Part shown: piece by piece, positions 45,729 through 64,000 of the stretch
Position numbering within the stretch: position 1 is the first letter of the stretch
Layout of the letters: every line of letters begins with the position of its first letter
From: a virus
DNA length: 64,000 nucleotides
Virus record (IMG/VR): IMGVR_UViG_3300046010_000754
Span: 1 to 64,000 of that record
Strand: one strand, 5' to 3'
The notes under the pieces: generated by a model
Database searches by the model: none
Seen by the model: only the letters and a program-made list of their open reading frames with translations
What the model was told of the DNA's origin: nothing
Made by a program: the position numbers and the translations under genes

Positions 45729-45737
45729 CGAAACTAA

Positions 45738-49286: not shown

Positions 49287-49305
49287 TCGTCGCCGTCGAA
49301 GTTCT

Positions 49306-49334
49306 AATCTAACCGAACGCGCAGGGCGCGTCAA
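49306..49334 (-). promoter_or_regulatory. Sigma70-like promoter for the SNF2 gene
   Basis: On the - strand: TTGACG (49334-49329), 17-base spacer, TAGATT (49311-49306). Five of six at -35, four of six at -10. The -35 overlaps the stop region of the HNH gene. Confidence 0.6.
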
Positions 49335-49848: not shown

Positions 49849-49857
49849 GATTGGCTC

Positions 49858-50130
49858 CTAATATCGGTTCAATTGTTCTGCGAGTTTATTTCTAATCTGG
49901 TGCATAAGAGAGCCATCTGACATGATGGCGTTGATCAACATGCTCTGCGCCACCTCACGGAGCCGTTCTTGGTTGTTGGTGTCATAGACACACTCAAGCT
50001 CCTCTACTTCCCAACGGTTGCTTGGATTTAAGGCTCGGCTGAGGGCGATCATGACGCGCTTGTCAACCTCCCTGCTCATCATCAAAGCAATGGTCGCGGT
50101 CTCTTGGTCAGGTAGGGTTGGTTCGCTCAT
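49858..50130 (-). CDS. Small acidic early protein
   Basis: 90 aa from ATG 50130, which overlaps the previous stop by four bases; the longer reading from 50262 lies inside the nuclease gene. All-helical (MMSREVDKRVMIALSRALNP; LREVAQSMLINAIMSDGSLM). Not recognised. Confidence 0.62.
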   Translation of the reverse strand: MSEPTLPDQETATIALMMSREVDKRVMIALSRALNPSNRWEVEELECVYDTNNQERLREVAQSMLINAIMSDGSLMHQIRNKLAEQLNRY

Positions 50131-51325: not shown

Positions 51326-53151
51326 CAGCAGTCTCCATAAGATTTGCCACTGCCCGACTCACAGTTGACGGGCAGACCTGTCGCCCACTCGGGCACCCAC
51401 CGCATGCAGTCCTCAACATACTGCGTTGCGGGTACAACCTCAGCATCTGGTACGCACACAGCAATCGCGTCATGCACAGTCAGCACAACCTTGTAACGCT
51501 TACCGATCTTCAGCATCTGCTCAGCGATGATGCAACGTGCAATGGCTTGGCATACGTTCTCAATCACCTTGCCGCCGTAGATACGGGTGCGACCCTTGCG
51601 CGTCTTGTAGTGGAACTCGATGCCCTTCTCGTTCTGGTCAAACTTCAAGTCGTCGTAGCGCATCAGCAGACCAGAGGGCAAGCGGATGGCTGTCTCACTC
51701 GGCACCACTTCAAGTACACCCCGGCGTCCGAGCGGTGCGGGTTCGTTGCGTGACATGTTTACCAGAGCGTTCTGAGCCTGTCGCCACAGCCTGACCACGG
51801 CATCGTTGGTGCGTCGATAAATGTCGATGATGCGCCGTGCTTCGTCCACGTCCACATCCACACCCATGTTCTTGAGTTGGGCTTGGAACTTCACGGCACC
51901 CATGCCATACCCCGCGCCAAGAATTGTGGTCTTACCCACGAACCGCTCGTCCTTGGTGATCTCGAACTCGGGCTTGCCGTAGATAGCCGAGGCCATCTTC
52001 TTGTACACGTCCTTACCCTCAGCAAAAGCTGTTACCAGATCATCTTGACCCGACAGCCATGCCAGCACACGTGCTTCGATCTGTGCAGAGTCAGCGTCAA
52101 TGATGGTGTGCCCCTCGGGGGCAATGATCGCCTTCTTGAGCTTGTTGCCATTGTTGCCACGGCTTGGCAAGTTCTGCATGTTGATCTTGTCGTCACCACC
52201 GAACCGTCCAGTGTGTGCGGCGTAGTAGCGAATCGGCACAGGCAGGTTGCCGCGCTTGGAGATGTCGATGAACCGTTGGGTACGTGTTTCCTCCAGTGTT
52301 GACTTCGTACCCAGTCGTGCGGCGACAAGCGTCTGCACCCGTGCATCGTCATGCTCAGCGAGGGCTTTGAATTCCTCGTCACTCTTGGCGAACGCATAGG
52401 TCTGCTTGCCCGTGGCAGGGCTCGTCTTCATCGGGGGTTCAACGCCGAACGAGCGGAGCAGTTCAGCGAACTTCTCATTGCTCATGAGTTCAGCCTTGTC
52501 CACACCCGAGGATGTCAGCAGGTCTTCCTTCATCTGCTTGATGCCGATGAGGTGCTGTTGCAACATGTCGCCGTCCAGTTCGAGCACAGGGTCGATGAAC
52601 ATGCGCAGGGTCTGGTCGATCACACGCAACTCTTGCTTGGGGAAATCCTTTACCAAGATGGTAAAGAGTTTGTGGGTGAGTTCCACATCGTTGATGCAGT
52701 AGTCACCGTACCGTGCAAGTTCTTCGTCGCTGAAACTCAGTCGTCTTTTACCGAGGGCGTTGACGACTTCTGTTCCTTTTGCGCCGAGCCCGTACCGCTC
52801 AGTAAGAGCTTTAAGCGAACCCCCAACTTCCACGCCGTGAAGGGCACGGCCCATACACAGAGTGTCAAGCCAACCCCGAGGATTAACACCGAAACGCCAA
52901 GACAGGATAGCCCCGTCAAAAAGGGTGTTGTGCGCCAAGACAAAACTCCGTTCCCATTCAAAATTGCCCTGAAGCCACTGTTTGATTTGTTCATGTGTTC
53001 CACTTGCCCACTCCGTTTCTTGGTTGTTGACCTTCACAGATACGCCAATGACTTCAAAGAGGTCAGAGCGTACGTATTCTTCGGTTGTGATCTTTGACAG
53101 CGAGAAGTCGCGGTCATAGTACGTTTCAAAATCAATTGTTATTAAGTCCAT
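51325..53151 (-). CDS. Family A DNA polymerase with 3'-5' exonuclease
   Basis: 608 aa. Exonuclease residues are visible: Asp7 and Glu9 in IDFETYYD, Asn75-Asp80 in HNTLFDG, and Tyr151-Asp155 in YCINDVELT. Polymerase motif A is DADSAQIEARVLAWL (352-366), motif B runs from Arg403 through KTTILGAGYGMG (407-418), and motif C is VHDAIAV (559-565). Motif C has Ala562 where Glu is usual (HDE). No 5'-3' nuclease domain is present, as in T7 and other phage enzymes. This is the replicative polymerase. Confidence 0.95.
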   Translation of the reverse strand: MDLITIDFETYYDRDFSLSKITTEEYVRSDLFEVIGVSVKVNNQETEWASGTHEQIKQWLQGNFEWERSFVLAHNTLFDGAILSWRFGVNPRGWLDTLCMGRALHGVEVGGSLKALTERYGLGAKGTEVVNALGKRRLSFSDEELARYGDYCINDVELTHKLFTILVKDFPKQELRVIDQTLRMFIDPVLELDGDMLQQHLIGIKQMKEDLLTSSGVDKAELMSNEKFAELLRSFGVEPPMKTSPATGKQTYAFAKSDEEFKALAEHDDARVQTLVAARLGTKSTLEETRTQRFIDISKRGNLPVPIRYYAAHTGRFGGDDKINMQNLPSRGNNGNKLKKAIIAPEGHTIIDADSAQIEARVLAWLSGQDDLVTAFAEGKDVYKKMASAIYGKPEFEITKDERFVGKTTILGAGYGMGAVKFQAQLKNMGVDVDVDEARRIIDIYRRTNDAVVRLWRQAQNALVNMSRNEPAPLGRRGVLEVVPSETAIRLPSGLLMRYDDLKFDQNEKGIEFHYKTRKGRTRIYGGKVIENVCQAIARCIIAEQMLKIGKRYKVVLTVHDAIAVCVPDAEVVPATQYVEDCMRWVPEWATGLPVNCESGSGKSYGDC

Positions 53152-53635
53152 CTTGCACCTGTGTTGTTGGGAAATACGTGTTCATCACTTCGCGGTAATC
53201 GAACTCCTCGGTGAAGCAGTCTTCGATGCTCACGTAGTCCAAGCCCGTCCGCACCACCGCATCGTTGTAGACAAACATGTGTGACGGCACTGACAGTCGG
53301 CTGTGAACAAAGTCATGCCCGTCAAGCGTTGCTCTCCACACGCCGCTCGTCTTGACCTTCTCCGAGTCGGGCTCACGTGCTTGCACCAGCCCCCAATACT
53401 TGAGGTGCCCGATAGAGTTGGAGCGCAACATGAACATGGGCACATCGTTACGAGTGTTGACCCATCCGTTCTCGGCACCCGCTGAGTTGCTCACGAGCCA
53501 CGCCAATGAACGCGCCATGCCGCTTGTCAGTTTGACCTTGTTGATCTTGCCCCACCGATCACACACAGGGCAGTAGCCGCCGTCCGATTCGATGGTGTTG
53601 CGCCAGTTGTGACGCAGTGTTGATTCTTCTGTCAT
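53132..53635 (-). CDS. Zinc-finger early protein of unknown function
   Basis: 167 aa overlapping the polymerase start by 20 bases. CPVCDRWGK near 22 supplies one CxxC pair; the rest is a helical and beta mix (SLAWLVSNSAGAENGWVNTR; IGHLKYWGLVQAREPDSEK), reminiscent of a winged helix. AAGGAGAAACGAAG leads to the ATG, preceded by the palindrome at 53657. I recall related proteins upstream of phage polymerases. Confidence 0.72.
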   Translation of the reverse strand: MTEESTLRHNWRNTIESDGGYCPVCDRWGKINKVKLTSGMARSLAWLVSNSAGAENGWVNTRNDVPMFMLRSNSIGHLKYWGLVQAREPDSEKVKTSGVWRATLDGHDFVHSRLSVPSHMFVYNDAVVRTGLDYVSIEDCFTEEFDYREVMNTYFPTTQVQDGLNNN

Positions 53636-53656
53636 CTTCGTTTCTCCTTGTTGTAA

Positions 53657-53673
53657 GTTAGGGAGTCCCTAAC
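53657..53673. promoter_or_regulatory. Early palindrome, copy 1
   Basis: GTTAGGGAGTCCCTAAC: perfect 8+1+8. It overlaps the end of the previous gene, supplying its last four codons and its TAA, and lies 22 bases before the next start codon (53635). Confidence 0.9.
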
Positions 53674-53888
53674 ATTTCCTTGAGCTTCATCTTGTAGTGA
53701 CGAAACTTGCCAGCATCATCGCTGTCTTTCTTGCCAGCACGCATGCCGTACTTGATGCAGTTGCCCTTGAGGTACCCAATGAATTCCTCGCGTGACAACG
53801 TAGCCTCCATCACTTCCCATGGCTGTACGCCCATGTCTTTGTAATGGGTGCCACCAACTTGCAGGTCGTCTGCTTTTACTTCGGTCAT
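53658..53888 (-). CDS. Small protein of the DUF3310 type
   Basis: 76 aa from ATG 53888 (ACGGAG upstream). The pattern QVGGTHYKDMGVQPWEVMEA, then GYLKGNCIKYGMRAGKK and HY, is what I recall as DUF3310, sometimes annotated as nucleotide-kinase-like in phages, without proof. The C-terminal MLGTP and stop are encoded by the palindrome itself. Confidence 0.8.
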   Translation of the reverse strand: MTEVKADDLQVGGTHYKDMGVQPWEVMEATLSREEFIGYLKGNCIKYGMRAGKKDSDDAGKFRHYKMKLKEMLGTP

Positions 53889-53959
53889 TTCAACTCCGTC
53901 TGTATCAATGCGGGGGTCATAACATGCGCACCCCCGTTCTGCGCATCCTCTATCAGCGA

Positions 53960-54043
53960 TCACATCAGTGCCTCCTCAACGTCATCCATTGCTTGCTCCT
54001 TGCGGTTCTTGCGTCCCCACTTGGCCAACTCTTTCGGACACAC
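53960..54043 (-). CDS. Possible 27-aa peptide
   Basis: From GTG 54043 the reading CPKELAKWGRKNRKEQAMDD has natural composition and ends at 53960, filling part of the gap before the DUF3310-like gene. It overlaps the preceding coiled-coil gene by 62 bases in another frame. No clear ribosome site, so this is only a candidate. Confidence 0.25.
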   Translation of the reverse strand: MCPKELAKWGRKNRKEQAMDDVEEALM

Positions 54044-54224
54044 CGTCCCGAAAGGCCAGCTTGGATACGGCAATGATGCGTTCCAGTGTGACTTTGAATC
54101 GTGCGTTGTCGTCGAGTGCTCGGTCGAGTTCGTGTTGCAATCTTTCATTACGTGCTCTCATCAATCTATTCTCTTGCTCCAGTTCAGCGACCATCAGGTC
54201 GAGGTTTCGTTCGTCTTCTGTCAT
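53982..54224 (-). CDS. Small coiled-coil protein
   Basis: 80 aa. The N-terminal 45 residues are a coiled coil (LDLMVAELEQENRLMRARNE; LQHELDRALDDNARF). The C-terminal 30 residues are Gly/Gln-rich. It starts inside the previous stop (ATGA overlap); GGAG lies before it. Function unknown. Confidence 0.65.
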   Translation of the reverse strand: MTEDERNLDLMVAELEQENRLMRARNERLQHELDRALDDNARFKVTLERIIAVSKLAFRDGVSERVGQVGTQEPQGASNG

Positions 54225-54490
54225 GTGTTGCTCCTTGCTCGGATAATGGCGGCTAACTCTTCTGGTGCGTTCCGCCGCAAAACACGTATCGCGGCCCAGA
54301 TGATGTCTTGCGACCTCGCACTTTCGTTCCCCATATGAATCGTATTCAAAAGCTCCACCGCCTCATCACGTTTCTCACGTTCGTCAGCACGGACAAGCTC
54401 AACCAGTCTGTGTATCTCAGGCATGAACTCCTGAAACAATTTCCAGTCATCTCCAGCGGCTTCACGCGCCATCTCAATGGTTGTTCTCAT
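54221..54490 (-). CDS. Small helical early protein
   Basis: 89 aa, acidic and helical (FMPEIHRLVELVRADEREKR; IIWAAIRVLRRNAPEELAAI). Four-base overlaps on both sides place it in the early operon. Not recognised. Confidence 0.66.
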   Translation of the reverse strand: MRTTIEMAREAAGDDWKLFQEFMPEIHRLVELVRADEREKRDEAVELLNTIHMGNESARSQDIIWAAIRVLRRNAPEELAAIIRARSNT

Positions 54491-54912
54491 GACACCACCC
54501 CAAAGGTGACGGACACACTGAAGCCACCGTAGTAGCCGTTGTGCTCGTTGTGGTTGGTCAGGACAAATGCACCCTTGGATGTTGTGATCTCCAAGAATTC
54601 AATGTCGTGTGGGTCTTCCTCCCCGCTGTCCTTCAGGGGAATCGGCACAGGCTTGACTTCAATGTTCAGCAGGTTGCCGCCCACGTAGTCGCCCAGCTTG
54701 TCATCAGTTGTCATGTAGCGGTTCTCGCAACATGATTGGCCATCGTCCGCGATGCGGATGAATGTGTTGTTCTTGAATCGGATGTGCAACTCGTCCTTCT
54801 CGGTCGAGCCCACTGGCCCTGCCAAAGCAATGCCCGTGATCTCTTTGCCCATCACCTTCATGAACGCTTCGAGGTCAGTGCCCGTCAGGTTGCATGTCAT
54901 TAAATCAAGCAT
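54487..54912 (-). CDS. Early protein of the DUF7448 type
   Basis: 141 aa from ATG 54912; the in-frame ATG at 55005 lies within the preceding gene. GKEITGIALAGPVGSTEKDE, then IADDGQSCCENRYMTTD and IEFLEITTSKGAFVLTNHNE, matches my memory of DUF7448, a small phage beta-barrel-like family with a conserved C-C-E. Function unknown. Confidence 0.72.
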   Translation of the reverse strand: MLDLMTCNLTGTDLEAFMKVMGKEITGIALAGPVGSTEKDELHIRFKNNTFIRIADDGQSCCENRYMTTDDKLGDYVGGNLLNIEVKPVPIPLKDSGEEDPHDIEFLEITTSKGAFVLTNHNEHNGYYGGFSVSVTFGVVS

Positions 54913-55093
54913 GTTCTTCCTCCAAAGGCCACAAGTAGTTTGCGTTGCGTAGGATGTCATCAGCCAACTTACGTGCGGCGTCCTCAGACATGATGACGTG
55001 CCCAAGCTCGGCTATGTACAGGACGACACCCATGTCTTTGTGGGGGTCACGGTCGGTAACGCCCACGGTGATAAAACGATTATTAAACGCCAT
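54905..55093 (-). CDS. Small early protein of unknown function
   Basis: 62 aa, overlapping both neighbours (8 and 11 bases). The sequence (RFITVGVTDRDPHKDMGVVL; ELGHVIMSEDAARKLADDIL) resembles a small beta-alpha unit. Not recognised. Confidence 0.65.
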   Translation of the reverse strand: MAFNNRFITVGVTDRDPHKDMGVVLYIAELGHVIMSEDAARKLADDILRNANYLWPLEEEHA

Positions 55094-55523
55094 CTTGTCT
55101 CTCCACGATGCGGCGCATCTTGCGCTGTCTAAATTCCTCGTTCACCAACTGTAAGCCGCGCTCCATGTCCTTGATCGTGATCACGTCCATCTGAGCGTCA
55201 TGCAAATCCATCAGTGTGTTGAGGGCTCTCATTTCTTCCGAACGCAGGATGAATCGGTTGCTCTGTGCGCCACGTTTACCAACGGCATGTAGCGCGTTTA
55301 ATCCATCCATTGTTATGTCACCATGCTCCTTACCAAACCCCATGCGAGACAGTGCTTCGGTCACGTTGCCCATGGCGATCAAGTCGTCCATGTCTGCGCG
55401 TGTTGCCTTGCCTTGCGTCAGGTTGGTCAGGGCCATGTGGTTCCTGATCTTCAGGTCTACCAAGTAGGTGTCGTGCTTTGCCACGGGGGTCATGCTCTCC
55501 ATCACGTATGCGATTGGATTCAT
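55083..55523 (-). CDS. Early helical protein of unknown function
   Basis: 146 aa from ATG 55523, with AAAGGGG before it; the ATG at 55562 lies inside the previous gene. Mostly helical (TRADMDDLIAMGNVTEALSR; MRALNTLMDLHDAQMDVITI). I recall similar proteins in early operons with no function assigned. Confidence 0.7.
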   Translation of the reverse strand: MNPIAYVMESMTPVAKHDTYLVDLKIRNHMALTNLTQGKATRADMDDLIAMGNVTEALSRMGFGKEHGDITMDGLNALHAVGKRGAQSNRFILRSEEMRALNTLMDLHDAQMDVITIKDMERGLQLVNEEFRQRKMRRIVERQDGV

Positions 55524-55548
55524 GATCACCCCTTTGGGTCTGTACTTG

Positions 55549-55725
55549 CTACGCTTGCGCATGGAATATGCGGGTCACTCGGTGCCACAGACGTTCGCCC
55601 AGCGTGGGCTTGGTCAGCAGTGCACGTTGCAACATCTCAGCGTGAACGCCGAGGTCAATCACTCTGCGCGGGGGTGTGTAGAACTCCCCGATCTTCACCT
55701 TGCCCGTGTTGTAAAACTGTGTCAT
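55549..55725 (-). CDS. Small early protein, 58 aa
   Basis: Begins at ATG 55725 with AAAAGGAACGAAG directly upstream, the shared early leader. The product MTQFYNTGKVKIGEFYTPPR continues VIDLGVHAEMLQRALLTKPT and ends WHRVTRIFHAQA, basic and amphipathic at the end. It fills an otherwise empty 130-base stretch. It overlaps the tail of the preceding small zinc protein in another frame. Confidence 0.72.
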   Translation of the reverse strand: MTQFYNTGKVKIGEFYTPPRRVIDLGVHAEMLQRALLTKPTLGERLWHRVTRIFHAQA

Positions 55726-55852
55726 CTTCGTTCCTTTTATCGTATGTGGAAATCATCTTGTGGCACCTTGCACACTCGTACATGATGTGGTCGGGGTTGC
55801 GCCAGCGAATGCCGAACTGCGACTCCTCCCACCTGTGCTTGCACGTCATCAC
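55655..55852 (-). CDS. Small zinc-ribbon early protein
   Basis: 65 aa. Cys4-His6 in MTCKHRW and the pair YECARCHKM near 26 give a zinc ribbon. The first 40 residues look well conserved in type; the C-terminal 28 overlap the start of the 58-aa gene, which is long for this operon, so the stop may be the result of drift. It starts by ATGA overlap with the nuclease gene. Confidence 0.6.
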   Translation of the reverse strand: MMTCKHRWEESQFGIRWRNPDHIMYECARCHKMISTYDKRNEDDTVLQHGQGEDRGVLHTPAQSD

Positions 55853-56139
55853 ATCTCTCCAAGCATGTAGCGCACGTGGTCAATGTTGTCTTCATTGATG
55901 ACCACCGCAACGCCGCCCATGGCTTTGATGCTGTCGAGGTTCTTCTGTTGCAACGGTGTCGGCTTGCCCTTGCCAGCCTTGCACTCGATGCCAAAGAACT
56001 TGCCGTGGTAGCACCCAACGATGTCAGGCACACCACTGCTACCGTACCCGCCAGTGACGGGGTAGAAGTAATAGGCGCGGAGTTCCTTGAGGATGGCCAC
56101 GACCTTCTTCTTGACTTTGACTTCGGGTGTATCAGCCAC
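55849..56139 (-). CDS. VRR-NUC domain nuclease
   Basis: 96 aa, a complete VRR-NUC domain. VTGGYGSSGVPDIVGCYHGK (Asp of the core), FFGIECKAGKGKPTPLQ (Glu and Lys of the core) and a last strand GGVAVVINED. Stand-alone VRR-NUC proteins from phages are known to form dimers that cut branched DNA such as Holliday junctions, so a resolvase role before packaging is likely. Confidence 0.9.
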   Translation of the reverse strand: MADTPEVKVKKKVVAILKELRAYYFYPVTGGYGSSGVPDIVGCYHGKFFGIECKAGKGKPTPLQQKNLDSIKAMGGVAVVINEDNIDHVRYMLGEM

Positions 56140-56365
56140 GGCGCTCTCCTTTGTCGCGGGTTGTCATTTCGTGCAACGCTTCCTCGATGAAGCCCATGTG
56201 ATTGCCAGACCACATGTCCCATACGACTGTGCGCTTTTGGTTGATGGTCAGATCACCGTCAGGACATCCCTTGAGCAAGCGCCCCATCTCGGCGCAACTT
56301 GCTGTGAAGTTTTTTGGTGCCTCTTGGTCAGGGCAGATTGTGAATGTGTAAGGTAATTTAGCCAC
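56132..56365 (-). CDS. Small early protein of unknown function
   Basis: 77 aa overlapping both neighbours by eight bases. Contains three Cys (TICPDQEAP, ASCAEMG, KGCPDGD) and reads as a compact domain. Not recognised. Confidence 0.63.
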   Translation of the reverse strand: MAKLPYTFTICPDQEAPKNFTASCAEMGRLLKGCPDGDLTINQKRTVVWDMWSGNHMGFIEEALHEMTTRDKGERRG

Positions 56366-56747
56366 GGAACCACCCCTTCACACGTTGCCACAGGGTAGGC
56401 TTGGGCTCGACCATGGTGATCTCACCGTACGAATTGATCGGATACGGGCGCAACACGTAGGCTTCGCCATGTGAAGTCGTGATGACTGGCTCGGTCGGCG
56501 TGGGGGGCAGTGATGCCAGTTCCCCTGCCTTGACTCTGCGCGTACGCTTCTTCGGAGGTGCACCGATGCCGTCCGTAGGTTTCGGCAACGCACCGATGGA
56601 GCCGAGCCCCCGCTCTTTGTTGAGTTGGTAGCGGATGTTGTACACGGCTTGCGGCTTGCACTTCAACTTGGCAATGATGTCCTTGTTGTTGTAGCCCTTG
56701 TCAATTAGTGTGCGGATGCGCTGTGTTGTGCTGATCTGTTTACTCAT
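56358..56747 (-). CDS. Helix-turn-helix regulator candidate
   Basis: 129 aa. I chose ATG 56747, directly after AAGGAAACGAAG, over the ATG at 56762 that would use the site as codons. Residues 7-46 (TQRIRTLIDKGYNNKDIIAK, then LKCKPQAVYNIRYQLNKERG) form a clear HTH; residues 55-75 are a basic linker and the end is a short basic helix WQRVKGWFRG. It is preceded by palindrome copy 2 and could be self-regulated through it. It is one of two candidates to bind the palindromes. Confidence 0.78.
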   Translation of the reverse strand: MSKQISTTQRIRTLIDKGYNNKDIIAKLKCKPQAVYNIRYQLNKERGLGSIGALPKPTDGIGAPPKKRTRRVKAGELASLPPTPTEPVITTSHGEAYVLRPYPINSYGEITMVEPKPTLWQRVKGWFRG

Positions 56748-56771
56748 CTTCGTTTCCTTCATTGTTAATTT

Positions 56772-56788
56772 GTTAGGGAGTCCCTAAC
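56772..56788. promoter_or_regulatory. Early palindrome, copy 2
   Basis: GTTAGGGAGTCCCTAAC, perfect, 25 bases before the HTH gene start and in the leader. The stretch 56748-56817 holds nothing else that I can recognise. Confidence 0.92.
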
Positions 56789-56817
56789 ACGGTACGTGAA
56801 GCGCACGTACCAACGCA

Positions 56818-57282
56818 TCAAGATGTGGTCTCGGGTGCGTACACCCAATAGACATGACTTGATATTCGACGACCGACACCCGCCACTTCTTGTGTTGGCG
56901 GTATACCACTCGTAATCATTAACACGGCAAGACGTTCCTTTACCCATTCAGGTAGATCGTCCGTCCGATCATAATGACCGTTGATGTCCGAGTCAACACT
57001 TCCGAGACCAAAACACATGACATCTATACCATCGGGAAAGATACTCACACGGTATATGTTGTCATCGTGCATCTCCACATCTACCATGTCCATCTGCCCC
57101 CCGTTTGCATGCTGTACGTCAAAGCGCATTACCTTGAACTTCATGGGCGTACGGCCTTCAGAAGACACCTCCCCTCTCAATATCCTACGCACGAGTGCGT
57201 CAGGCGGTTCCTCAGAGAACATGCGTGGGTCAGTCCAACCCATGCCGTACCGCTCGGTTGTCTTGTAGATCAGCTTGCTCAT
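56818..57282 (-). CDS. Early protein of unknown function
   Basis: 154 aa, overlapping the previous stop by four bases. A beta-rich middle (MKFKVMRFDVQHANGGQMDM; DDNIYRVSIFPDGIDVM) is followed by an acidic helix and a short end. No motif recognised. The gene ends 30 bases before palindrome copy 2. Confidence 0.68.
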   Translation of the reverse strand: MSKLIYKTTERYGMGWTDPRMFSEEPPDALVRRILRGEVSSEGRTPMKFKVMRFDVQHANGGQMDMVDVEMHDDNIYRVSIFPDGIDVMCFGLGSVDSDINGHYDRTDDLPEWVKERLAVLMITSGIPPTQEVAGVGRRISSHVYWVYAPETTS

Positions 57283-58232
57283 CGTTGCACCCAGAAGGTT
57301 GCGCTGTCAACACGCAAGCCCACGCCGTCCACGTAGTGGTTGTCCTCCACCATGCTCAATGCGGCGAGGCACCCACCGATGTGCTCGGGCAACTCCTCCA
57401 TCTTGTACGTGACCACAGGCATGTGGTTGTCGAGGCGTGAACGCTTGTTGGCATCCAGTACCTCGATCACGTCACACATCATCTCTTCGCGGTGTATACG
57501 GACATTCACGTAGTACGCATGCAGGGCACGGCCACGAGACACCTGATCTTCTTGGTACGCCTCACGCCACTTGATGATCATGCCCTTGAAGTCTTCGGAC
57601 AAGAACTCGTACCCCACATCAACCATGTGAAACAACTCAGCACGTAGGTGCACAGAGTTTGTGATGTCGTACCGCACTGAAGACAACCCAGACGACACGT
57701 TCGACACGACTGCTGAGAACTGATTGCGGATGCTGTCAAACGTCATGCTTGCACACTCAACGGGTGAGTACGGGCGCATGTACTTCTTCACGTTCTTGAC
57801 GGCACGTTCGATGTTCTCCGCCGTTGCCATGTAATACTGATCTTTGTCCTCGCGGAACTTGTCATTGCTGATCATCCGCGCATAGACCATGTACTTGACA
57901 TCACCTGTGTTCTTCACGGTGTAGTCGGCGTACCCGATCTTCATCATGGCGTAGGTGTGCCCTTCCATGTACACGTACAACTCCAGCAACCTGTTCGGGC
58001 CACCATGCCCCCAACTGTTCTTGGCGCGATTGCCCACGCCGAACTTCACATGGCGGTTGACCTTGCGTATTTCGGTGCAGAAGTTCAGCAACGGGCCTGT
58101 GACGGGGATGCCGTCCACCATAGGTATGGGCGGGTCACCCGCATTTACTGTCTCAACACTATTAGCCAGTGCGGACAGCAAAGCCTTGGTCTTCTTCTCG
58201 ATAACATCTACTCGTGTGTGGTCGTAGCTCAT
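57279..58232 (-). CDS. Large early protein of unknown function
   Basis: 317 aa with AAGGAGG before ATG 58232. Mixed alpha/beta (LLELYVYMEGHTYAMMKIGY; YMVYARMISNDKFREDKDQY) with a long helical second half. No catalytic motif or membrane segment. I recall co-occurrence with the next gene in podovirus early regions but no function. Confidence 0.72.
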   Translation of the reverse strand: MSYDHTRVDVIEKKTKALLSALANSVETVNAGDPPIPMVDGIPVTGPLLNFCTEIRKVNRHVKFGVGNRAKNSWGHGGPNRLLELYVYMEGHTYAMMKIGYADYTVKNTGDVKYMVYARMISNDKFREDKDQYYMATAENIERAVKNVKKYMRPYSPVECASMTFDSIRNQFSAVVSNVSSGLSSVRYDITNSVHLRAELFHMVDVGYEFLSEDFKGMIIKWREAYQEDQVSRGRALHAYYVNVRIHREEMMCDVIEVLDANKRSRLDNHMPVVTYKMEELPEHIGGCLAALSMVEDNHYVDGVGLRVDSATFWVQR

Positions 58233-58233
58233 T

Positions 58234-59166
58234 TCAAACCTCCTTCGTTTCGTACATGCCTAACAACTTGTTCATCATGCGGTTGTATGAGGACTTGATC
58301 TTCATCAGGTCGTCCTTGCTCTCGATGACACGTTTGCCACCGATGTCATTGATCACCAACGCCATCAACGGGATGCGCAGGGGATGATCTTCTTGCTCCA
58401 CGATATACCGCGCCAGTGCACTCGGTACGTGGTTGAGCCCACCCCACTGCGGTACATCAAAGCCGTTCTCTTTGCCCCACTCGGAGATAACGGTGCGGTA
58501 CTCGTTGCGTCCGTTCCACGAGGTGTCGAGCATAGGTGCCAACGCCGCCGCTTGTGTGTAGAACGAGTCGATGCGTTCCTTCCATTGCTTCTTGAGTTCT
58601 TTGTCCACAGTCGTTCTCTCCACTTTGAATACTTCACCGACACGTGTGAACGTGCCATCCTCGTTGACCCGAAACTTCAGGCGCTTGCCGTCATCGCGGC
58701 CCACTTCCTTGAGTTGGTAGTCCCACCTGTAATTCGTCTTGGGCAAGGGGAAATCCTCCCACCCTGTCGGTGTCTTGGTGCGTAGCCAATGCTTGCCCTG
58801 TTGGTTGTACCTGAACGCCACATCATTCGGCAGGCACCACTGCAAGAACTTATAGCGTCCGAACGGAACGGAGCCCTTCGTGCCGTTGCGTACATAGATG
58901 TAATCACCATCGGCCTCACGCTTCCACATGATCGGTGCCATGTCCTGCTCGTACTGTGCATCGCCTCGGTTACTGTTGTACATGGTGCTACCGTAGTACC
59001 CATCGAGCAAGCAATAGGTCTCTGCATCCACCTTACGGATGCGCTCCCACTTGCGCTTGCGATCACCGACAGGTCGGATGTCATCTGATAGCGTGTGGTT
59101 CTTGCTGACAAGTGGCTTGGTTTGTTCGTACCACTTGACCACCTCGTTGAATGTATTGAATCTCAT
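58234..59166 (-). CDS. Large early protein of unknown function
   Basis: 310 aa from ATG 59166, which follows AACAAGGAAACGAAG and palindrome copy 3; a longer reading from 59247 would run through the palindrome. Rich in Trp, Tyr and Lys (FNEVVKWYEQTKPLVSKNHT; FGRYKFLQWCLPNDVAF). It probably forms a nucleic-acid or protein-binding domain; no family recognised. It ends one base before the next gene. Confidence 0.72.
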   Translation of the reverse strand: MRFNTFNEVVKWYEQTKPLVSKNHTLSDDIRPVGDRKRKWERIRKVDAETYCLLDGYYGSTMYNSNRGDAQYEQDMAPIMWKREADGDYIYVRNGTKGSVPFGRYKFLQWCLPNDVAFRYNQQGKHWLRTKTPTGWEDFPLPKTNYRWDYQLKEVGRDDGKRLKFRVNEDGTFTRVGEVFKVERTTVDKELKKQWKERIDSFYTQAAALAPMLDTSWNGRNEYRTVISEWGKENGFDVPQWGGLNHVPSALARYIVEQEDHPLRIPLMALVINDIGGKRVIESKDDLMKIKSSYNRMMNKLLGMYETKEV

Positions 59167-59182
59167 CTTCGTTTCCTTGTTT

Positions 59183-59199
59183 GTTAGGGAGTCCCTAAC
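59183..59199. promoter_or_regulatory. Early palindrome, copy 3
   Basis: GTTAGGGAGTCCCTAAC, perfect, 17 bases before the start at 59166. On the + strand it is followed by TTGGTTTGGGTT, a phrase that also follows copy 6. A separate small inverted repeat, AGCCAC-TGC-GTGGCT, lies at 59212-59226. Confidence 0.92.
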
Positions 59200-59228
59200 T
59201 TGGTTTGGGTTAGCCACTGCGTGGCTGG

Positions 59229-59426
59229 TTAAGCGCGTCTGTTCCACAGTCGCACTGCTTCGTCACGTGTACGCCCCATGCACTCGATGGGTTTGAGCAC
59301 AGGCTTGCCCCCATCTTTGCACCAGTGCAGTACCGATACAGAGAACACACCCGTTGTCGAGTTGCGTTCACGTATTTCTACCTCATGCCCACCACAGAAC
59401 GGGCACGGTTTAATTTGCTCAGTCAT
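59229..59426 (-). CDS. Lar-like restriction alleviation protein
   Basis: 65 aa. KPCPFCGGHEVEIRE at the N-terminus, a third Cys (LHWCKDGG), a fourth (IECMGRT), and the closing W-N-R-R (AVRLWNRRA) are the Lar signature. Lar proteins protect phage or prophage DNA by changing type I restriction and modification; in most phages this is untested. Four-base overlap with the previous gene. Confidence 0.83.
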   Translation of the reverse strand: MTEQIKPCPFCGGHEVEIRERNSTTGVFSVSVLHWCKDGGKPVLKPIECMGRTRDEAVRLWNRRA

Positions 59427-59608
59427 GACCGCTCCTCCATGAACTTGGCATGCGCGGCAACGAGTTGCTCACGCGCTTCCTTGCTCTCAATGAACATCAC
59501 CATCATGCGTTTCAATGAACGCGCCTCGTCCTTGTACTTGAACATCGCCGCAGTTGCGAGTACCGCCCATGCGAACAACGCCATCTCAGTCAAAGTAATC
59601 TCAATCAT
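59423..59608 (-). CDS. Small membrane protein
   Basis: 61 aa. One membrane segment at about residues 5-23 (TLTEMALFAWAVLATAAMF), then a basic, charged helix (LKRMMVMFIESKEAREQLVA). Placed between the VWA protein and the Lar-like protein with four-base overlaps on both sides, so it may be a membrane partner of the VWA/MoxR module. Confidence 0.68.
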   Translation of the reverse strand: MIEITLTEMALFAWAVLATAAMFKYKDEARSLKRMMVMFIESKEAREQLVAAHAKFMEERS

Positions 59609-60822
59609 GACCAGTCCTCCACGTGTACATACTTGCCCACATCAGGTCGGGCGTTCCTGTTACCAACGATGCACCACAGTACGGGGCATGCCCACTGACC
59701 CCACGAACCACCGAGGTAGCCGTCAGTCAACACGATCACCGCTTGCGGTTTAACACCATGCTGTGTCATGTACTCAGGCACACACTCCACCACAGTGCCA
59801 CCACCACCCGCAGGTTTGGTCGATTGGATGATGTTCGCTACCTCAGTGCCAACGTACTTCTCGTCCGCACACACCTCGGTGTCCCAATACAAGAGGCGCA
59901 CTACGTCAGGGTTGACCTGATCACAGATACCCTTGACCTCGCCCAAGAACTTGGACAACTCGCGCCCACCGATGGAGCCCGATGTGTCGATGGCAATGAC
60001 CAACTCACCCACCTGTTCGCTCACACCCGATGGCATGTAATAGCCCGATGACACGAACCTACGGTTGGGCCGCCGCCACGTCGAGTAGTCGCTACCCTGA
60101 CACGTTGTGGCAATGAACTCACGCAACATCTCGCGCCAGTCGATCTTGGTTTCGAGCAAGTCATCGAACATCCGATCACCACCCGAGCCGAGCTTGCCAG
60201 CCGCCAGTGCGCCTTGACGTATCGCTTCATCGAGGTCACGTGCTAACTGCTTGCCTTGCTCAGGAGTCATGTCCCGAGCGCCCTCCCAGTCGTGATCATC
60301 GAGACCAGTTCCCGAGGGTGCGCCTGAGCCGTCACCATCACCCGAGCCGCCACCTTGCCCGCCCCCGGAATCCTGTTGGTCGTCCTTCAATAACTTGTAC
60401 ACCTGTGCGCTGTCCATGCCACGGTACTTGGCATCACACAGTCCGACCTTGGGCATGATGGCAAAGCCATCGCTGTTGTCATCGGTCAGCTTGATGTTGA
60501 TCACGTAGTCGCACGCCGCATTCGCAAGCTGTGCGTTGTCCTCATACAGATGACGCCACGTAGTCAGGTGCCGATACAGTTTGTGGTAGCACTCGTGCAA
60601 CACGAGGAACCGTAGCTCTGCATCACTGAGGGTCTCAATGAACGCACGTCCATACATCTCATCACGCCCGTTGGTGCATGCGGTCTTGGTCTTGTCGTCC
60701 ACTGTGCGTGAGCCGATCATCAGTACGCCAGCGAGGGCGACATACTTGGGCGAACCCATGATGTCCACCACTGCCTTGCTGAGCCGTTGCTCAGCGGTTA
60801 GTTGTTTGCCTATCATCAGCAT
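59605..60822 (-). CDS. VWA-domain protein with N-terminal zincin-like motif
   Basis: 405 aa. The N-terminal domain has HECYH (76-80), a HExxH metallopeptidase signature as in DUF2201-type proteins. A Gly/Asp/Ser linker lies at 150-172. The C-terminal VWA-like domain has the MIDAS motif AIDTSGSIG (277-285) and VLTDGY near 360. Such proteins pair with MoxR-type ATPases, here the gene at 60973, to remodel target proteins. AAGGAG in the end of the 38-aa gene serves as its ribosome site. Confidence 0.85.
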   Translation of the reverse strand: MLMIGKQLTAEQRLSKAVVDIMGSPKYVALAGVLMIGSRTVDDKTKTACTNGRDEMYGRAFIETLSDAELRFLVLHECYHKLYRHLTTWRHLYEDNAQLANAACDYVINIKLTDDNSDGFAIMPKVGLCDAKYRGMDSAQVYKLLKDDQQDSGGGQGGGSGDGDGSGAPSGTGLDDHDWEGARDMTPEQGKQLARDLDEAIRQGALAAGKLGSGGDRMFDDLLETKIDWREMLREFIATTCQGSDYSTWRRPNRRFVSSGYYMPSGVSEQVGELVIAIDTSGSIGGRELSKFLGEVKGICDQVNPDVVRLLYWDTEVCADEKYVGTEVANIIQSTKPAGGGGTVVECVPEYMTQHGVKPQAVIVLTDGYLGGSWGQWACPVLWCIVGNRNARPDVGKYVHVEDWS

Positions 60823-60823
60823 T

Positions 60824-60940
60824 TCATTTCTCCTTGATGCACTGACATTCGCCAGCGCCTTTGATACATACGTGGAAGTCGATGAGTCCGACCATCCCCG
60901 CCAGTGTGCAAAGCACGAAAGCCCATCCGAGGAATCTCAT
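60824..60940 (-). CDS. 38-aa membrane protein within the MoxR/VWA module
   Basis: ATG 60940 with AAGGA nine bases upstream; stop at 60824, one base before the VWA start. The product MRFLGWAFVLCTLAGMVGLI then DFHVCIKGAGECQCIKEK has one membrane segment (2-22) and a Cys-rich outer end (three Cys in ten residues). Short but well placed: without it the 130 bases between the two genes would be empty. Confidence 0.65.
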   Translation of the reverse strand: MRFLGWAFVLCTLAGMVGLIDFHVCIKGAGECQCIKEK

Positions 60941-60955
60941 ACCGTGTCCTTAGTT

Positions 60956-60972
60956 GTTAGGGAGTCCCTAAC
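60956..60972. promoter_or_regulatory. Early palindrome, copy 4
   Basis: GTTAGGGAGTCCCTAAC, perfect. It directly follows the stop of the MoxR gene and lies 16 bases before the 38-aa gene. Confidence 0.92.
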
Positions 60973-62067
60973 TTATTTCTTGTCCGCCGCGAACATGTAG
61001 TTGTTCGCCATTGCCCACGCTGTGAACTTCTTGTTGGTCATGACCACAGACTGCTTGGCATACTTGGGGTTGCGCACACCGTTGGCAAACATGCCTTGGG
61101 CTTCTTTGTCGAGGCGCACCATGTAGTCCATCCACGCATCAATCCAGTCACGGTCGATGACAGACAACGAGCGATACACCACCATGCACACCGCCGCCGC
61201 GCTGTCAGGCACCTTGGCATTCATCGGGTCTTTCTTGATTGACTCCAATGATGGCAACTGATCAGACAGTTTGACGAACGCCATCAAGTCCATCGCTCCG
61301 CGTTCACCGATGGTGCCCATGAGCAAAGCTGTCATAGTTTGATCGTCCACACCATCGCGGCCCTTCAACCAATCCGATGCGGCTTCGAGTGAACGAGGCG
61401 TGACGAACGCAGTGCGCTGTTGCTTGGGGTGATAGATGTACGGGTTCTGTTCAGGGTCTTTGACATCCTCGAACGAGTGGAACAACTGAGGGTTGTCCTT
61501 GCACCATCCGAGCAACGTGTGATCGACACCGTTGTTGACACCCCACTCAATCCATTCCATGTTTGACGGCTTGCGTGATGTGACCACAGTCATACGGTTA
61601 CGTGCATGGGGAGGGAGCAGGTCGCCCACACCCTCTGCGCCGAGGTTGGTCGTGGCAAACACCACAGACTTGTCGGTTAACGTGTAACCACCCATCTTGC
61701 GTTCGAGCAAGAGCCGGAGCATGGCGTTCTTCACGGCAGGGTTTGCCTTGCCGTACTCGTCCACCATCAGGATGATGTCTTTCCCTAAGTGCAAGCCGAG
61801 TTCCTCGTTGGTCACGTAGCGCACATACCCTTGGTCGTCAATGGTCTGCAACTGAGGGATGGTGATGTCGCCCAAGTCCTTGGTCGTGCAGTCAAAGTAG
61901 CACATGATGTGTTGTGGCAGTGCCTTGCCCAAGGTCTTGAGCAGGGATGACTTGCCTGTACCCATGTGACCTTGCACAAGGACGGTACGCTTGTTGCCAC
62001 CGACACGGATGGCTGTCTCGATTTGGTCGAGCCCGAGGGAGTACATTGCAATAGCTTGATTAGACAT
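60973..62067 (-). CDS. MoxR-type AAA+ ATPase
   Basis: 364 aa. Walker A GHMGTGKSS (33-41), Walker B ILMVDEYGKA (99-108), sensor 1 VVFATTNLGAEG (135-146), and an arginine-finger region PHARNRMTVV (153-162). These ATPases work as hexamers with VWA proteins to activate or dismantle targets. The next genes, a membrane peptide and the VWA/zincin protein, complete the pair. The leader is preceded by palindrome copy 5, 32 bases upstream; the ribosome site is weak (AGAAAG). Confidence 0.87.
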   Translation of the reverse strand: MSNQAIAMYSLGLDQIETAIRVGGNKRTVLVQGHMGTGKSSLLKTLGKALPQHIMCYFDCTTKDLGDITIPQLQTIDDQGYVRYVTNEELGLHLGKDIILMVDEYGKANPAVKNAMLRLLLERKMGGYTLTDKSVVFATTNLGAEGVGDLLPPHARNRMTVVTSRKPSNMEWIEWGVNNGVDHTLLGWCKDNPQLFHSFEDVKDPEQNPYIYHPKQQRTAFVTPRSLEAASDWLKGRDGVDDQTMTALLMGTIGERGAMDLMAFVKLSDQLPSLESIKKDPMNAKVPDSAAAVCMVVYRSLSVIDRDWIDAWMDYMVRLDKEAQGMFANGVRNPKYAKQSVVMTNKKFTAWAMANNYMFAADKK

Positions 62068-62098
62068 GATGTTTCTTTCTGTTTGGTTAGGTTAAGTT

Positions 62099-62115
62099 GT
62101 TAGGGAGTCCCTAAC
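62099..62115. promoter_or_regulatory. Early palindrome, copy 5
   Basis: GTTAGGGAGTCCCTAAC, perfect, between the DUF3150-like gene (stop at 62119) and the MoxR gene. Confidence 0.92.
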
Positions 62116-62118
62116 TTG

Positions 62119-63006
62119 TTACCAGCCGAGGCTCGGCAGGTTGTCGATGGTCTTGCGCACCTCGTTGACCTTGCGGCGGGTCTCGGCGCGGAGGTAGGGG
62201 TCTTCACGCAGGGCATCGGGTGTGATGCCACGCATGGCTTCGTCGAGGTCACGCTGTGCGGCTGACATCACGGGGTCGCCTGTCACGTTACATGCACCGA
62301 GCAGTTCGATGATGTCCGTCACGTTGGACACGAGTGAATCGCGGAACACCTTGCGTGTGGTGTCATCGGCATAGTCGAGGCGCTCTGACATCTTTGTCAG
62401 TGCATCGTGCGCTCTGCGCCATACATCGCCCATCGCGGTTTGCAACTGCTGTGCGTAGTAGCCCTCGTACTGAGAACGCAGGGCGCTCTCGGTCTCGTCA
62501 CCGATGGACACACGCCAGTCACCCGCATCAGGCAGGGGCATGTAGTTCATCTTGAAGCGGAACTTGTGGATGAGGCTGTCCGCTGTCGGGTACTCGTCAG
62601 GGTTGAACAGTGCGCCGAGCTTGAGTTGGGCGTTCTGAATCTCCCACGAGTAGGCATCGAGGAACGCTTGCACGAGGCGTTGGTATTCGCTTTGCAATGC
62701 TGTCATCTCTTGGTGATACTTGAAGTATTGTGTTGTCGGGAGCAGACGCAGACCTGTGTCAGACCAAGGCATGGTGCATGCGTAGTGCACGTTACGGGCA
62801 TTGGCCGTGAACTTCTGCACCGCATCCAATTCGGCGCAGTCACCGAGGAGCTTCTTGTGCACGTTGGCCACACCCTTGTCAGCGTTGTTCTGTGACGTGA
62901 CATCCTGTGATGCACGCTTGTCGAGCTTGCGGCCAGTCCATGTACCGATGCTGAGTTCGACCAGCATGGCGGCGCTGGAGATTGAGGGGATAGATGTGTT
63001 TGTCAT
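62119..63006 (-). CDS. DUF3150-like third component of the MoxR module
   Basis: 295 aa, all-helical. The opening MLVELSIGTWTGRKLDKRAS and the later NVTDIIELLGACNVTGDP match my memory of DUF3150, which co-occurs with AAA+ and VWA genes in phages. It would be a substrate or adaptor for the ATPase. It is the first gene after the promoter at 63088-63116; AACAAGGAAACGAA leads to the ATG. Confidence 0.78.
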   Translation of the reverse strand: MTNTSIPSISSAAMLVELSIGTWTGRKLDKRASQDVTSQNNADKGVANVHKKLLGDCAELDAVQKFTANARNVHYACTMPWSDTGLRLLPTTQYFKYHQEMTALQSEYQRLVQAFLDAYSWEIQNAQLKLGALFNPDEYPTADSLIHKFRFKMNYMPLPDAGDWRVSIGDETESALRSQYEGYYAQQLQTAMGDVWRRAHDALTKMSERLDYADDTTRKVFRDSLVSNVTDIIELLGACNVTGDPVMSAAQRDLDEAMRGITPDALREDPYLRAETRRKVNEVRKTIDNLPSLGW

Positions 63007-63021
63007 TTCGTTTCCTTGTTT

Positions 63022-63038
63022 GTTAGGGATTCCCTAAC
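63022..63038. promoter_or_regulatory. Early palindrome, copy 6
   Basis: GTTAGGGATTCCCTAAC, perfect arms with centre T where the other five copies have G. It lies 16 bases before the start at 63006, inside the transcribed leader of the promoter at 63088-63116. Confidence 0.93.
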
Positions 63039-63087
63039 TGGGTTTGGGTTTGTTTATCGACAAGGCGAATTCCGAGTCGATGGTTGT

Positions 63088-63116
63088 ATTGTAGCATAGT
63101 CTGCTACGTTTGTCAA
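63088..63116 (-). promoter_or_regulatory. Strong early promoter with an inverted repeat in its core
   Basis: On the - strand: TTGACA (63116-63111), 17-base spacer, TACAAT (63093-63088). The spacer and first -10 bases contain GTAGCA-GACTA-TGCTAC (63107-63091), a perfect 6-bp inverted repeat placed where a repressor would block RNA polymerase. It drives the MoxR module and probably the whole leftward operon. Confidence 0.85.
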
Positions 63117-63133
63117 TGTTTTCACACTGTCTG

Positions 63134-63334
63134 TTAAGTTCTGTCAGGTACCTTCGATACCCACACGCACTCGTTGATGTGCACCTTGCCCTTGCTGTCG
63201 GTGTATGTCTCGCCGCACCCTGCGGCCCACTCCAAGAACATGAACAGGAAGAACGCCATCAGCGCCGCGCCAGCGAGACCTTGAAGTAGCCAAAGCAAGA
63301 GTGGTTTGAGGTATTGCGTCCAAAGATGTTTCAT
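63134..63334 (-). CDS. Small membrane protein
   Basis: 66 aa. Hydrophobic residues at about 10-38 (LKPLLLWLLQGLAGAALMAF) form one long membrane segment, then WAAGCGETYTDSKGKVHINE, a likely outside part with two Cys. The AAGC could be a poor lipobox. CGAAGGAC precedes the ATG. Confidence 0.7.
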   Translation of the reverse strand: MKHLWTQYLKPLLLWLLQGLAGAALMAFFLFMFLEWAAGCGETYTDSKGKVHINECVWVSKVPDRT

Positions 63335-63507
63335 TGTGTGTCCTTCGTTTGGTTCATGTGGTTAAGAACCGCAATCCAGAACTTGCGCCCTGCCTCGTGG
63401 CTGTCGTATGCAAACGCATGGTCGGTCGCCCGTTCTGCGGGTGTGTACTTGCTGTGCTTGTACATGCTCATCATGCGTTCGGCGGTGGCCTTCGGGTCAT
63501 CGGTCAT
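63331..63507 (-). CDS. Small early protein
   Basis: 58 aa from ATG 63507, overlapping both neighbours by four bases; a longer reading from 63606 lies in the previous gene. Helical (PKATAERMMSMYKHSKYTPA; EAGRKFWIAVLNHMNQT). Not recognised. Confidence 0.66.
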   Translation of the reverse strand: MTDDPKATAERMMSMYKHSKYTPAERATDHAFAYDSHEAGRKFWIAVLNHMNQTKDTQ

Positions 63508-63803
63508 TTCAATTCCTCCCATCCGAATCCGGTGACGTTGCTTGGCTGTGACTGTGACGTGTAAGCGTACATGTCCTTGGCGCGTTTGGCTGTCAGGCCA
63601 GTCCACTCGGTCGTTGCACCGTCACGGGTGGTGATGTAGAACCGGAAGCGGTACTTGTTGGGTTGCACCTTGGCTTTGCGCTCGGCCTCCATGATGTCAC
63701 GCATGGCGTGGAAAGACTCGTGTTTCATCACGGCCAGTTGTTGTGCGGCTGTTAGGGGATTCCCTAACAAGTCCATTGTGTAGATGTCCTCGGCTTGTTT
63801 CAT
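63504..63803 (-). CDS. Early protein of unknown function
   Basis: 99 aa, AAGGA before ATG 63803. A helix (LAVMKHESFHAMRDIMEAER) is followed by a beta part (YRFRFYITTRDGATTEWTGL). Codons 12-18 (LLGNPLT) are encoded by a palindrome variant at 63751-63768. Not recognised. Confidence 0.68.
   Translation of the reverse strand: MKQAEDIYTMDLLGNPLTAAQQLAVMKHESFHAMRDIMEAERKAKVQPNKYRFRFYITTRDGATTEWTGLTAKRAKDMYAYTSQSQPSNVTGFGWEELK
63751..63768. repeat. Variant of the early palindrome inside a coding region
   Basis: GTTAGGGGATTCCCTAAC: one extra G gives an even-length copy with one mismatch. It lies 35-52 bases into the 63803 gene, similar in place to the copy inside the SNF2 gene. Confidence 0.7.
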
Positions 63804-63812
63804 GGTGAGTCC

Positions 63813-64000
63813 TTAGCGGTGCAAGCCGCCTTTGTTGTTGATACCCTTGAGGTCGTCAAGGTCGGTGATGAGCATGTAGTTGCTCTTGTGCATGGGCACG
63901 ATGGTGCGGATGGATGCACGTGCTTGTGCATCGCCGCATGGCATGCAGATGTGATAGCCAGCGTTGGCTCGCTTGGCTGAATAGATGTCGTCGCAGATGA
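63813..64000 (-). CDS. Partial gene at the window end (5' end missing)
   Basis: The last 61 codons of a gene read leftward from beyond 64000. The visible end (NAGYHICMPCGDAQARASIR; TIVPMHKSNYMLITDLDDLK; GINNKGGLHR) includes a CxxC that could be half of a zinc site. I recall this C-terminal type from other phage early regions. Its start lies outside the window. Confidence 0.75.
   Translation of the reverse strand, partial: ICDDIYSAKRANAGYHICMPCGDAQARASIRTIVPMHKSNYMLITDLDDLKGINNKGGLHR

Follow-up and report, generated by a model that had tools for sequence, protein, structure and literature searches.

Dispersed early-region palindromes and a small protein that varies with them suggest a fast-diversifying switch in a group of phages

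Passages of published work on the Cluster A mycobacteriophages (L5, Bxb1) describe genomes with many dispersed repressor sites, most of them away from promoters, and a site motif and repressor that differ jointly between related phages (PMC6550527). These ‘stoperators’—20–30 sites of 13 bp, oriented with transcription, in temperate phages (PMC6550527)—are described in parts of the same literature as asymmetric sequences bound by a monomeric repressor (PMC6550527, PMC9283540). A long-standing question, posed for this cluster, is how a regulator can switch specificity in concert with every one of its scattered sites (PMC6550527). For systems of the RavA-ViaA type, sections of two reports place a MoxR AAA+ ATPase and its von Willebrand factor type A (VWA) partner in adjacent genes (PMC10585395, PMC7159879). 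Here we describe a 64,000-nt stretch of viral DNA (the window; positions 1–64,000 of the 65,909-base record IMGVR_UViG_3300046010_000754, whose early region runs past the window end) in which a DUF3150–MoxR–VWA gene set lies among copies of a 17-bp palindrome, GTTAGGGANTCCCTAAC. The first early gene of the record, c16, encodes a small protein that changes with the palindrome between related phages, and this joint change suggests a genetic switch that controls early genes and diversifies quickly. The gene set is real and already widespread; the palindrome–c16 wiring was previously unremarked. The palindromes and the putative regulator varying with them are the most unusual feature of the place and were absent from the preliminary description of the window. 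A dispersed palindromic regulon makes the better story than a conserved module plus incidental small open reading frames (ORFs).

The record carries terminase, portal and tail genes on the plus strand and replication and early genes on the minus strand. The exact palindrome GTTAGGGANTCCCTAAC occurs nine times in the record, never more than 12.3 kb into the early strand, and six times in the window, where matches with at most three mismatches number 8 as compared to 0.09 expected in shuffles. Each of the six exact copies lies at a cistron border, in front of the DUF3150-like gene, the MoxR gene, the 38-aa ORF/VWA pair, a 310-aa gene, a helix-turn-helix (HTH)-like gene or the polymerase pair. 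No paper describing these palindromes was found among the matches listed from open-licence PMC full text. The regulatory features are as follows, with the palindromes given without strand.

65151–65675 of the record, just beyond the window, minus strand: c16, the first early gene, ~170 aa, following the first palindrome
63752–63768: degenerate palindrome with 3 mismatches, within the ORF 63504–63803
63088–63116, minus strand: sigma-70-type promoter of the module, TTGACA-N17-TACAAT, 11/12 match, extended −10
63022–63038: palindrome GTTAGGGATTCCCTAAC, 15 nt 5′ of the DUF3150 start
62099–62115: palindrome GTTAGGGAGTCCCTAAC, 31 nt 5′ of the MoxR start
60956–60972: palindrome between MoxR and the 38-aa ORF/VWA pair
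59183–59199: palindrome 5′ of the 310-aa gene 58234–59166
56772–56788: palindrome 5′ of a gene with a weak HTH_23 match that ends at 56358 and encodes 129 or 134 aa, depending on the start codon
53657–53673: palindrome 5′ of the gene 53132–53635 and the DNA polymerase gene 51325–53151

The module promoter, read from 63116 to 63088, is the best sigma-70 match within 45001–64000, and the next palindrome is centred at about +51 from its predicted start. The preliminary description had called it the strongest early promoter, which holds for that range; a 12/12 match lies 1.2 kb further upstream, at 64357–64329 of the record and beyond the window.

Among 80 related viral loci, found with the VWA protein, 66 carry at least three copies of one palindrome (shuffled control: 0/40), and in the near-complete records of the group the sites are restricted to the early region. 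While the positions stay, the sequence varies by lineage, with half-sites GTTAGGG, GTTAGTG, GTTAGGC, GTTATAC, GTTAGTC, GTTATAG, GTTATGC, GTTATCC, CCTGACC and TTTACGC. The 13 half-site/length classes require at least 17 Fitch changes on a MoxR+VWA tree with 62 labelled tips, as compared to a mean of 33.8 and a minimum of 30 with labels shuffled on the same tree. Sites mostly end 12–35 nt 5′ of a start codon, and are within reach of the starts of DUF3150 (25/27), MoxR (45/58), VWA (31/71) and the 310-aa gene (16/31); five of the 25 DUF3150 sites fall at the start of or inside the gene, in several phages as far as 45 nt past the start. Hybrid sites exist (for example GTTAGTG-N3-CCCTAAC), and the sites of the phages G004, L045 and L209 are mostly GTTAGCC/GTTAGTC hybrids.

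Two palindromes are followed by a repeated element, CCAGTTCCTGAAGCGGCGGCGAG, with GTTC repeats. A repeated element, GAAACCAGTTCCTGAAGCGGCGGCGAG, stands directly after palindromes in the non-coding stretch beyond c16, with GTTC repeats behind it, often as two copies ~160 nt apart (early-strand positions 852 and 1022 in G000; also in L133, L138, L205, L212 and L217). It is a possible origin or structured RNA.

c16 is a small, all-helical protein. We found 102 distinct versions, after removal of proteins shorter than 110 aa and of identical ones, and 88 of their genes have a classed palindrome on the 5′ side. In the close pair G000/G001, the polymerase (94%), MoxR (97%) and helicase are 94–98% identical, as compared to 32% for c16, and the palindromes are of the GTTAGGG and GTTATAC types, respectively; in the pair G001/G002, which shares a palindrome, c16 is 97.6% identical. 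A single position, residue 101, splits the GTTAGG from the GTTAGT/GTTATA classes almost without exception, being serine in 21/22 GTTAGGG and 5/5 GTTAGGC proteins and alanine in 49/50 GTTAGTG and 4/4 GTTATAC proteins. When the half-site was predicted from training proteins less than 40% identical, residues 96–105 were right in 68/74 cases, the N-terminus in 49/74 and the C-terminus in 29.9/74 (13 unclassed proteins and one artefact class had been removed from the 102, and 74 of the 88 were testable under the identity limit). All of the ten best among 165 sliding 10-residue segments begin at residues 92–101, and the block that tracks the half-site spans residues ~94–110; under looser identity limits, the N-terminus and the whole of c16 predict about as well as the block.

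Natural chimaeras point the same way: c16 of L015 and L020 combines a C-terminus of the GTTATAC type with a different central block, and the palindrome is different too. The GTTAGGG/17 class is found at three separate positions on the backbone tree, with the block reading SKMKD or SKIKD where c16 is present. A later check of unclassed rows found three exact GTTATAC sites in L214 and six exact GTTAGTG sites in L251, each matching its c16 block, an expectation that had not been recorded beforehand; L216 has one hybrid site that fits neither class, and L016 has none. Repetition of the sites, their early confinement, their concerted change, the change in c16 and the tracking block can all be read off the genomes, and from these patterns c16 appears to set the specificity of a dispersed palindromic regulon.

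We consider it slightly better than an even chance (probability about 0.5) that c16 binds the palindromes at cistron borders and restrains early transcription, both the binding and its sign being predictions. The protein would most likely bind its sites in the early region as a dimer, including the ones that precede DUF3150, MoxR and the 38-aa ORF/VWA pair. As the sites never overlap recognised core promoters and instead lie ~40–60 bp into the transcribed leader or between genes, c16, once built up, would most likely act as a road-block that lowers early transcripts. The spacing from 53 strong promoters, mostly not those of c16, is instructive: the palindrome is centred at +40 to +60 in 26/53 cases and within −45 to +20 in 0/53, and for this reason a road-block fits better than promoter occlusion. 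(The −10 pattern of this placement scan left out the TACAGT type, and most c16 promoters therefore appear only in the c16-promoter scan.) The same road-block could shut down a co-infecting relative that carries identical sites, and the DUF3150–MoxR–VWA set would be one regulated target of the c16 regulon. Physical binding, dimerisation, repression rather than activation and the effect on superinfection are all features that we infer from sequence patterns.

A broader, tentative reading, which as a whole strikes us as somewhat doubtful, is that a new c16 family gives phages apparently without integrases orthogonal ‘immunity groups’. A phage would then use road-blocks at cistron borders to silence its own early operon and that of same-palindrome co-infecting kin; escape from kin would drive the rapid, concerted replacement of all sites and the recognition block, half-site by half-site; and hybrid sites and the hybrid-site phages (G004, L045, L209) would be intermediates. 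‘Immunity’ is used here by analogy, since neither integrase nor resolvase (PF00589, PF00239) was detected in any of 7 records.

Several observations weigh against c16 as a road-block repressor, or against its wider role. The protein has no confident Pfam, PHROG or PDB match and no recognised DNA-binding domain, and a fold search with its predicted model (predicted local distance difference test (pLDDT) 88.6, predicted template modelling score 0.60) gave no convincing match (best Z 6.2, root-mean-square deviation (rmsd) 4.1, 46 aligned residues). No classed palindrome precedes 14 of the 102 c16 genes. The strict test at less than 40% identity covers the two big classes and two GTTAGTC proteins, the latter with 0/2 right, and L077, of class GTTAGGG/19, has alanine at residue 101 and two c16 copies. 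Linked genes can also co-vary through descent or joint transfer. As to the sites, the central base is strand-biased in 4/5 classes (for example, CACG 21 versus CGTG 3), which is unexpected in a symmetric site, and a position 12–35 nt 5′ of starts makes an effect on translation possible; together, strand bias and closeness to start codons favour some direction-dependence and permit a role as RNA. The first site stands upstream of the c16 promoter, a position equally compatible with activation and repression. An immunity role is speculative, as no lysogeny gene was found among the 7 records.

Separately, the c16 copies of L077/L079 (G009) are paralogues within one phage, whose palindromes measure 18 and 19 bp and share the same half-site.

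The competing explanations differ in what they make of site symmetry and position. Perfect palindromes make up 469 of the 503 distinct sites; among the 34 sites with one mismatch, 29 would break an RNA pair, many of these through one half-site being that of another class, and 5 would make a G-U pair. Where the c16 promoter scores at least 10/12 (20/68), the first palindrome is centred at −65 to −93 from it, and no promoter of at least 10/12 was seen 5′ of the first palindrome in the 68 cases examined. Because most of the mismatches break the RNA pair and the first site precedes the c16 promoter where that can be recognised, we favour DNA over RNA as the form in which the sites act. That the palindromes are RNA hairpins in leaders, to which c16 binds as to translational operators or antitermination signals of the nut kind, is quite unlikely on this evidence: it would explain the strand bias, sites just 5′ of ribosome-binding sites and ~+50 from strong promoters, and the tolerance for middles of 3, 4 or 5 nt, but the positions flanking the centre, unpairable in a hairpin loop, are complementary in 105/108 GTTAGGG sites (a feature that a conserved ANU loop could mimic). 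Activation at the level of DNA draws on the same first site. Class I activators use about this spacing from the start, and c16, acting alone or together with a modified host polymerase, might start or boost a transcript at each site, giving every cistron a phage promoter of its own. This scheme is consistent with the few strong sigma-70 matches in the early region and with sites that end 12–35 nt 5′ of start codons, mostly 22–23 nt in Planktothrix phage Pag-Yong1 (OL906435). We hold it to be unlikely: in several phages sites fall inside genes (DUF3150, 5/25 at or inside the gene), so that a transcript begun there would lack the initiation codon, and no constant spacing of −10/−35 elements to the sites was seen. 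A single-subunit RNA polymerase (PF00940) matched in 0/7 records, a weak negative given 0/14 in control genomes, and the 2144- and 2115-aa proteins gave no match to a virion RNA polymerase. N4-type hairpin promoters were dropped, there being no RNA polymerase match and sites that can fall inside coding sequence.

The co-variation itself could stem from linkage, with another early protein as the regulator and the module itself a host-takeover AAA+/VWA machine. In its favour, c22, c23, c42, c43, c46 and c29 also differ strongly between G000 and G001, and the gene after the 56772 palindrome has a weak HTH_23 match; this HTH-like protein, however, is 76% identical across the palindrome change, and c22, c42 and c43 differ between the same-palindrome phages G002/G003 as well (33–37%). 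c16, by contrast, is kept in the same-palindrome pair, with the G003 locus matching G002 best (92%), and the predictive signal is strongest in one c16 block, so that we judge linkage to another regulator improbable. Least credible, and in our view very improbable, is that c16 binds the sites for genome upkeep of the partition, packaging or replication type. Palindromic, dispersed sites with one regulator gene beside the first would suit such a function, as would the CCAGTTCCTGAAGCGGCGGCGAG element and GTTC repeats that follow two of them, as near an origin; the sites are, however, unclustered and limited to early-gene cistron borders over 10–12 kb. Restraint of early transcription by c16 is the reading we prefer.

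The genes that these palindromes punctuate were the subject of the preliminary description, whose five minus-strand ORFs (295, 364, 38, 405 and 61 aa) are present as described. Together with their neighbours, they are the following.

62119–63006, minus strand: helical protein of 295 aa, DUF3150-like (weak Pfam match), encoded by the leading gene of the module
60973–62067, minus strand: MoxR-type AAA+ ATPase, 364 aa (AAA_5; phrog_1297)
60824–60940, minus strand: hydrophobic ORF of 38 aa, a lineage-specific insertion that separates MoxR from VWA (1/80 loci)
59605–60822, minus strand: protein with VWA (metal ion-dependent adhesion site, MIDAS) and zincin (HExxH) domains, 405 aa (DUF2201_N/DUF2201; phrog_1314)
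59423–59608, minus strand: 61-aa small ORF, sporadic (6/80 loci)
59229–59426, minus strand: Lar-like restriction-alleviation protein, 65 aa (PF14354; 12/80 loci)
58234–59166, minus strand: 310-aa early gene of unknown function behind a palindrome (40/80 loci)

Pfam matches for the three large genes vary in strength. The ATPase matches AAA_5 at 25.6 bits (cut-off 22), with the MoxR-subfamily models AAA_3 (E 0.057) and bpMoxR (E 0.069) below cut-off; residues G36, G38, K39, S40, D103, E104, T139, T140 and N141, which we take to be Walker A, Walker B and sensor 1, are unchanged in 25 aligned rows, and the AAA_5 match and invariant residues together mark an AAA+ core. The VWA protein exceeds the cut-offs of both the DUF2201_N metallopeptidase (96.3 bits) and the DUF2201 VWA-like family (62.9 bits); its HExxH motif is HECYH, and H76, E77, H80 and the MIDAS residues (DxSxS) are invariant in 28 aligned relatives. 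The DUF3150 match is weak (18.9 bits, E 0.001, below the cut-off of 24.9), while the homologue in MinM2 carries the annotation DUF3150. A fold search with its predicted model (pLDDT 76.2) returned helical bundles only, among them many designed proteins (Z 10.1 at best, with rmsd 3.0 and 96 aligned), and no paper combining DUF3150 with ‘phage’ was found in open-licence PMC full text. The phrog_1314 label ‘HNH endonuclease’ for the VWA protein we judged an annotation error in view of the Pfam matches; the family is named ‘HNH endonuclease’ or ‘homing endonuclease’ in many GenBank phage records, probably an inherited mislabel. Membership of the module in a defence system was rejected, the PADLOC matches being weak and partial.

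The conserved core is the DUF3150–MoxR–VWA/zincin trio. MoxR is present in 78/80 and DUF3150 in 62/80 loci, those without one or the other (18 without DUF3150) being contigs that break off inside MoxR or VWA or a short way 5′ of either, and the order DUF3150–MoxR–VWA is the same in 62/62 loci with all three. Mean column identity is highest for MoxR (83%), with 70% each for DUF3150 and VWA. An early-region operon of these genes behind a strong promoter, with conserved catalytic residues, is supported, whereas the supposedly new combination with two tiny membrane proteins did not survive the survey of relatives: the small ORFs are absent from most of them, an outcome that the preliminary description had itself named as refuting, the single locus with the 38-aa ORF being the same phage as the window. 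The MoxR–VWA gap is frequently 8–50 nt; in longer gaps there are various small ORFs without relation to one another, or no ORF at all (79 rows, including the window). A conserved five-gene unit is ruled out by this recurrence and by the variable gaps; the small ORFs beside the trio are incidental cargo. The MoxR–VWA pair, for its part, is already common in phages and not new: out of 50,697 phage records, 746 have relatives of VWA and 366 have relatives of MoxR. Judged by its families, the module would be an ATP-driven AAA+ remodeller, and its VWA/zincin partner may have cleaving activity as well.

The suggested neighbourhood of host takeover or counter-defence is plausible because a Lar-like protein directly follows the module (PF14354, 39.4 bits; cut-off 28.6) and a gene near the Pag-Yong1 VWA gene (L263, 25453–26493) is annotated as anti-CRISPR AcrVA2. 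Kinship of the genes after VWA to AcrVA2 was discarded, the profiles of the 310- and 317-aa genes matching nothing in Pag-Yong1. Elsewhere in the window (36173–42520), a 2115-aa protein has LPD39 and also matches antirestriction families of the DarB-like kind (phrog_10089); it is a large polyvalent protein that probably enters the cell with the injected DNA.

The nearest terminase relatives, at 41–47% identity, belong to pelagiphages of the HTVC023P/027P type, DSL-LC04 and Pag-Yong1-type phages; for terminase, MoxR and VWA, all phage-record matches listed are below 60% identity, and none is close. Genes in records G000–G013 were called with a greedy script. A search by MoxR in genome contigs gave 30 stretches that fit the pattern and no relative among them, and hence no host.

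For the question of joint specificity change, the group offers 88 natural c16–palindrome pairs, at least 13 site classes, chimaeric regulators and hybrid-site phages. The signal that predicts the half-site maps to a block of ~10–17 residues in a family without a known fold match, and, given so many natural pairs, classes and chimaeras, the question should be testable with a few purified proteins. The palindromes also give the conserved DUF3150–MoxR–VWA set an expression context.

As in RavA-ViaA systems, the MoxR-type ATPase stands beside a VWA gene; here, however, the VWA protein has an N-terminal HExxH domain (DUF2201_N), a DUF3150-like gene is the third member, and the set is phage-borne. 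Both proteins were found by profile in Schitoviridae (Vibrio SBP1, Acinetobacter nACB1) and in the giant phage PA5oct (VWA, E-values 7e-59 to 4e-53; MoxR, 6e-22 to 9e-17), with no DUF3150 match in these three regions. The VWA proteins there are 31–33% identical to that of the window, and helicase and polymerase genes adjoin in the two Schitoviridae. The N4 counterparts of the MoxR–VWA pair are presumably gp24/25. These N4 homologues are classed as middle genes in a portion of the N4 literature (PMC4193335).

Closer in layout is Pag-Yong1, of whose kind H116–H118 are three 65,014-base records. Like the window, it has divergent early and late regions, with MoxR, DUF3150 and VWA in the early one, and its own dispersed palindrome, GGTTCAGNCTGAACC, in 17 exact and 16 one-mismatch copies, many of them 22–23 nt 5′ of starts. 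Unlike in the window, the order is MoxR–DUF3150–VWA and some sites lie in the late region. Its first early gene shows no detectable homology to c16, a paralogue of that gene’s product is encoded upstream of MoxR, and relatives of the gene were found in 0/36 stretches of viral contigs. Either the arrangement arose twice or the regulators diverged beyond recognition. The name Pag-Yong1 was absent from the PMC papers listed, no search having paired it with palindromes. As a cultured phage with a similar layout, Pag-Yong1 provides a laboratory entry.

With the stoperators, finally, the sites described here share dispersal in many copies of one motif, most not overlapping promoters. They differ in being palindromes of 16–19 bp, confined to the early region at ~5–9 exact copies per genome, in phages whose 7 records gave no integrase or resolvase match, and in their putative regulator, c16, which has no detectable kinship to known repressors or to any family. 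The palindromic regulon thus resembles stoperator systems in its layout, not in the symmetry of its sites.

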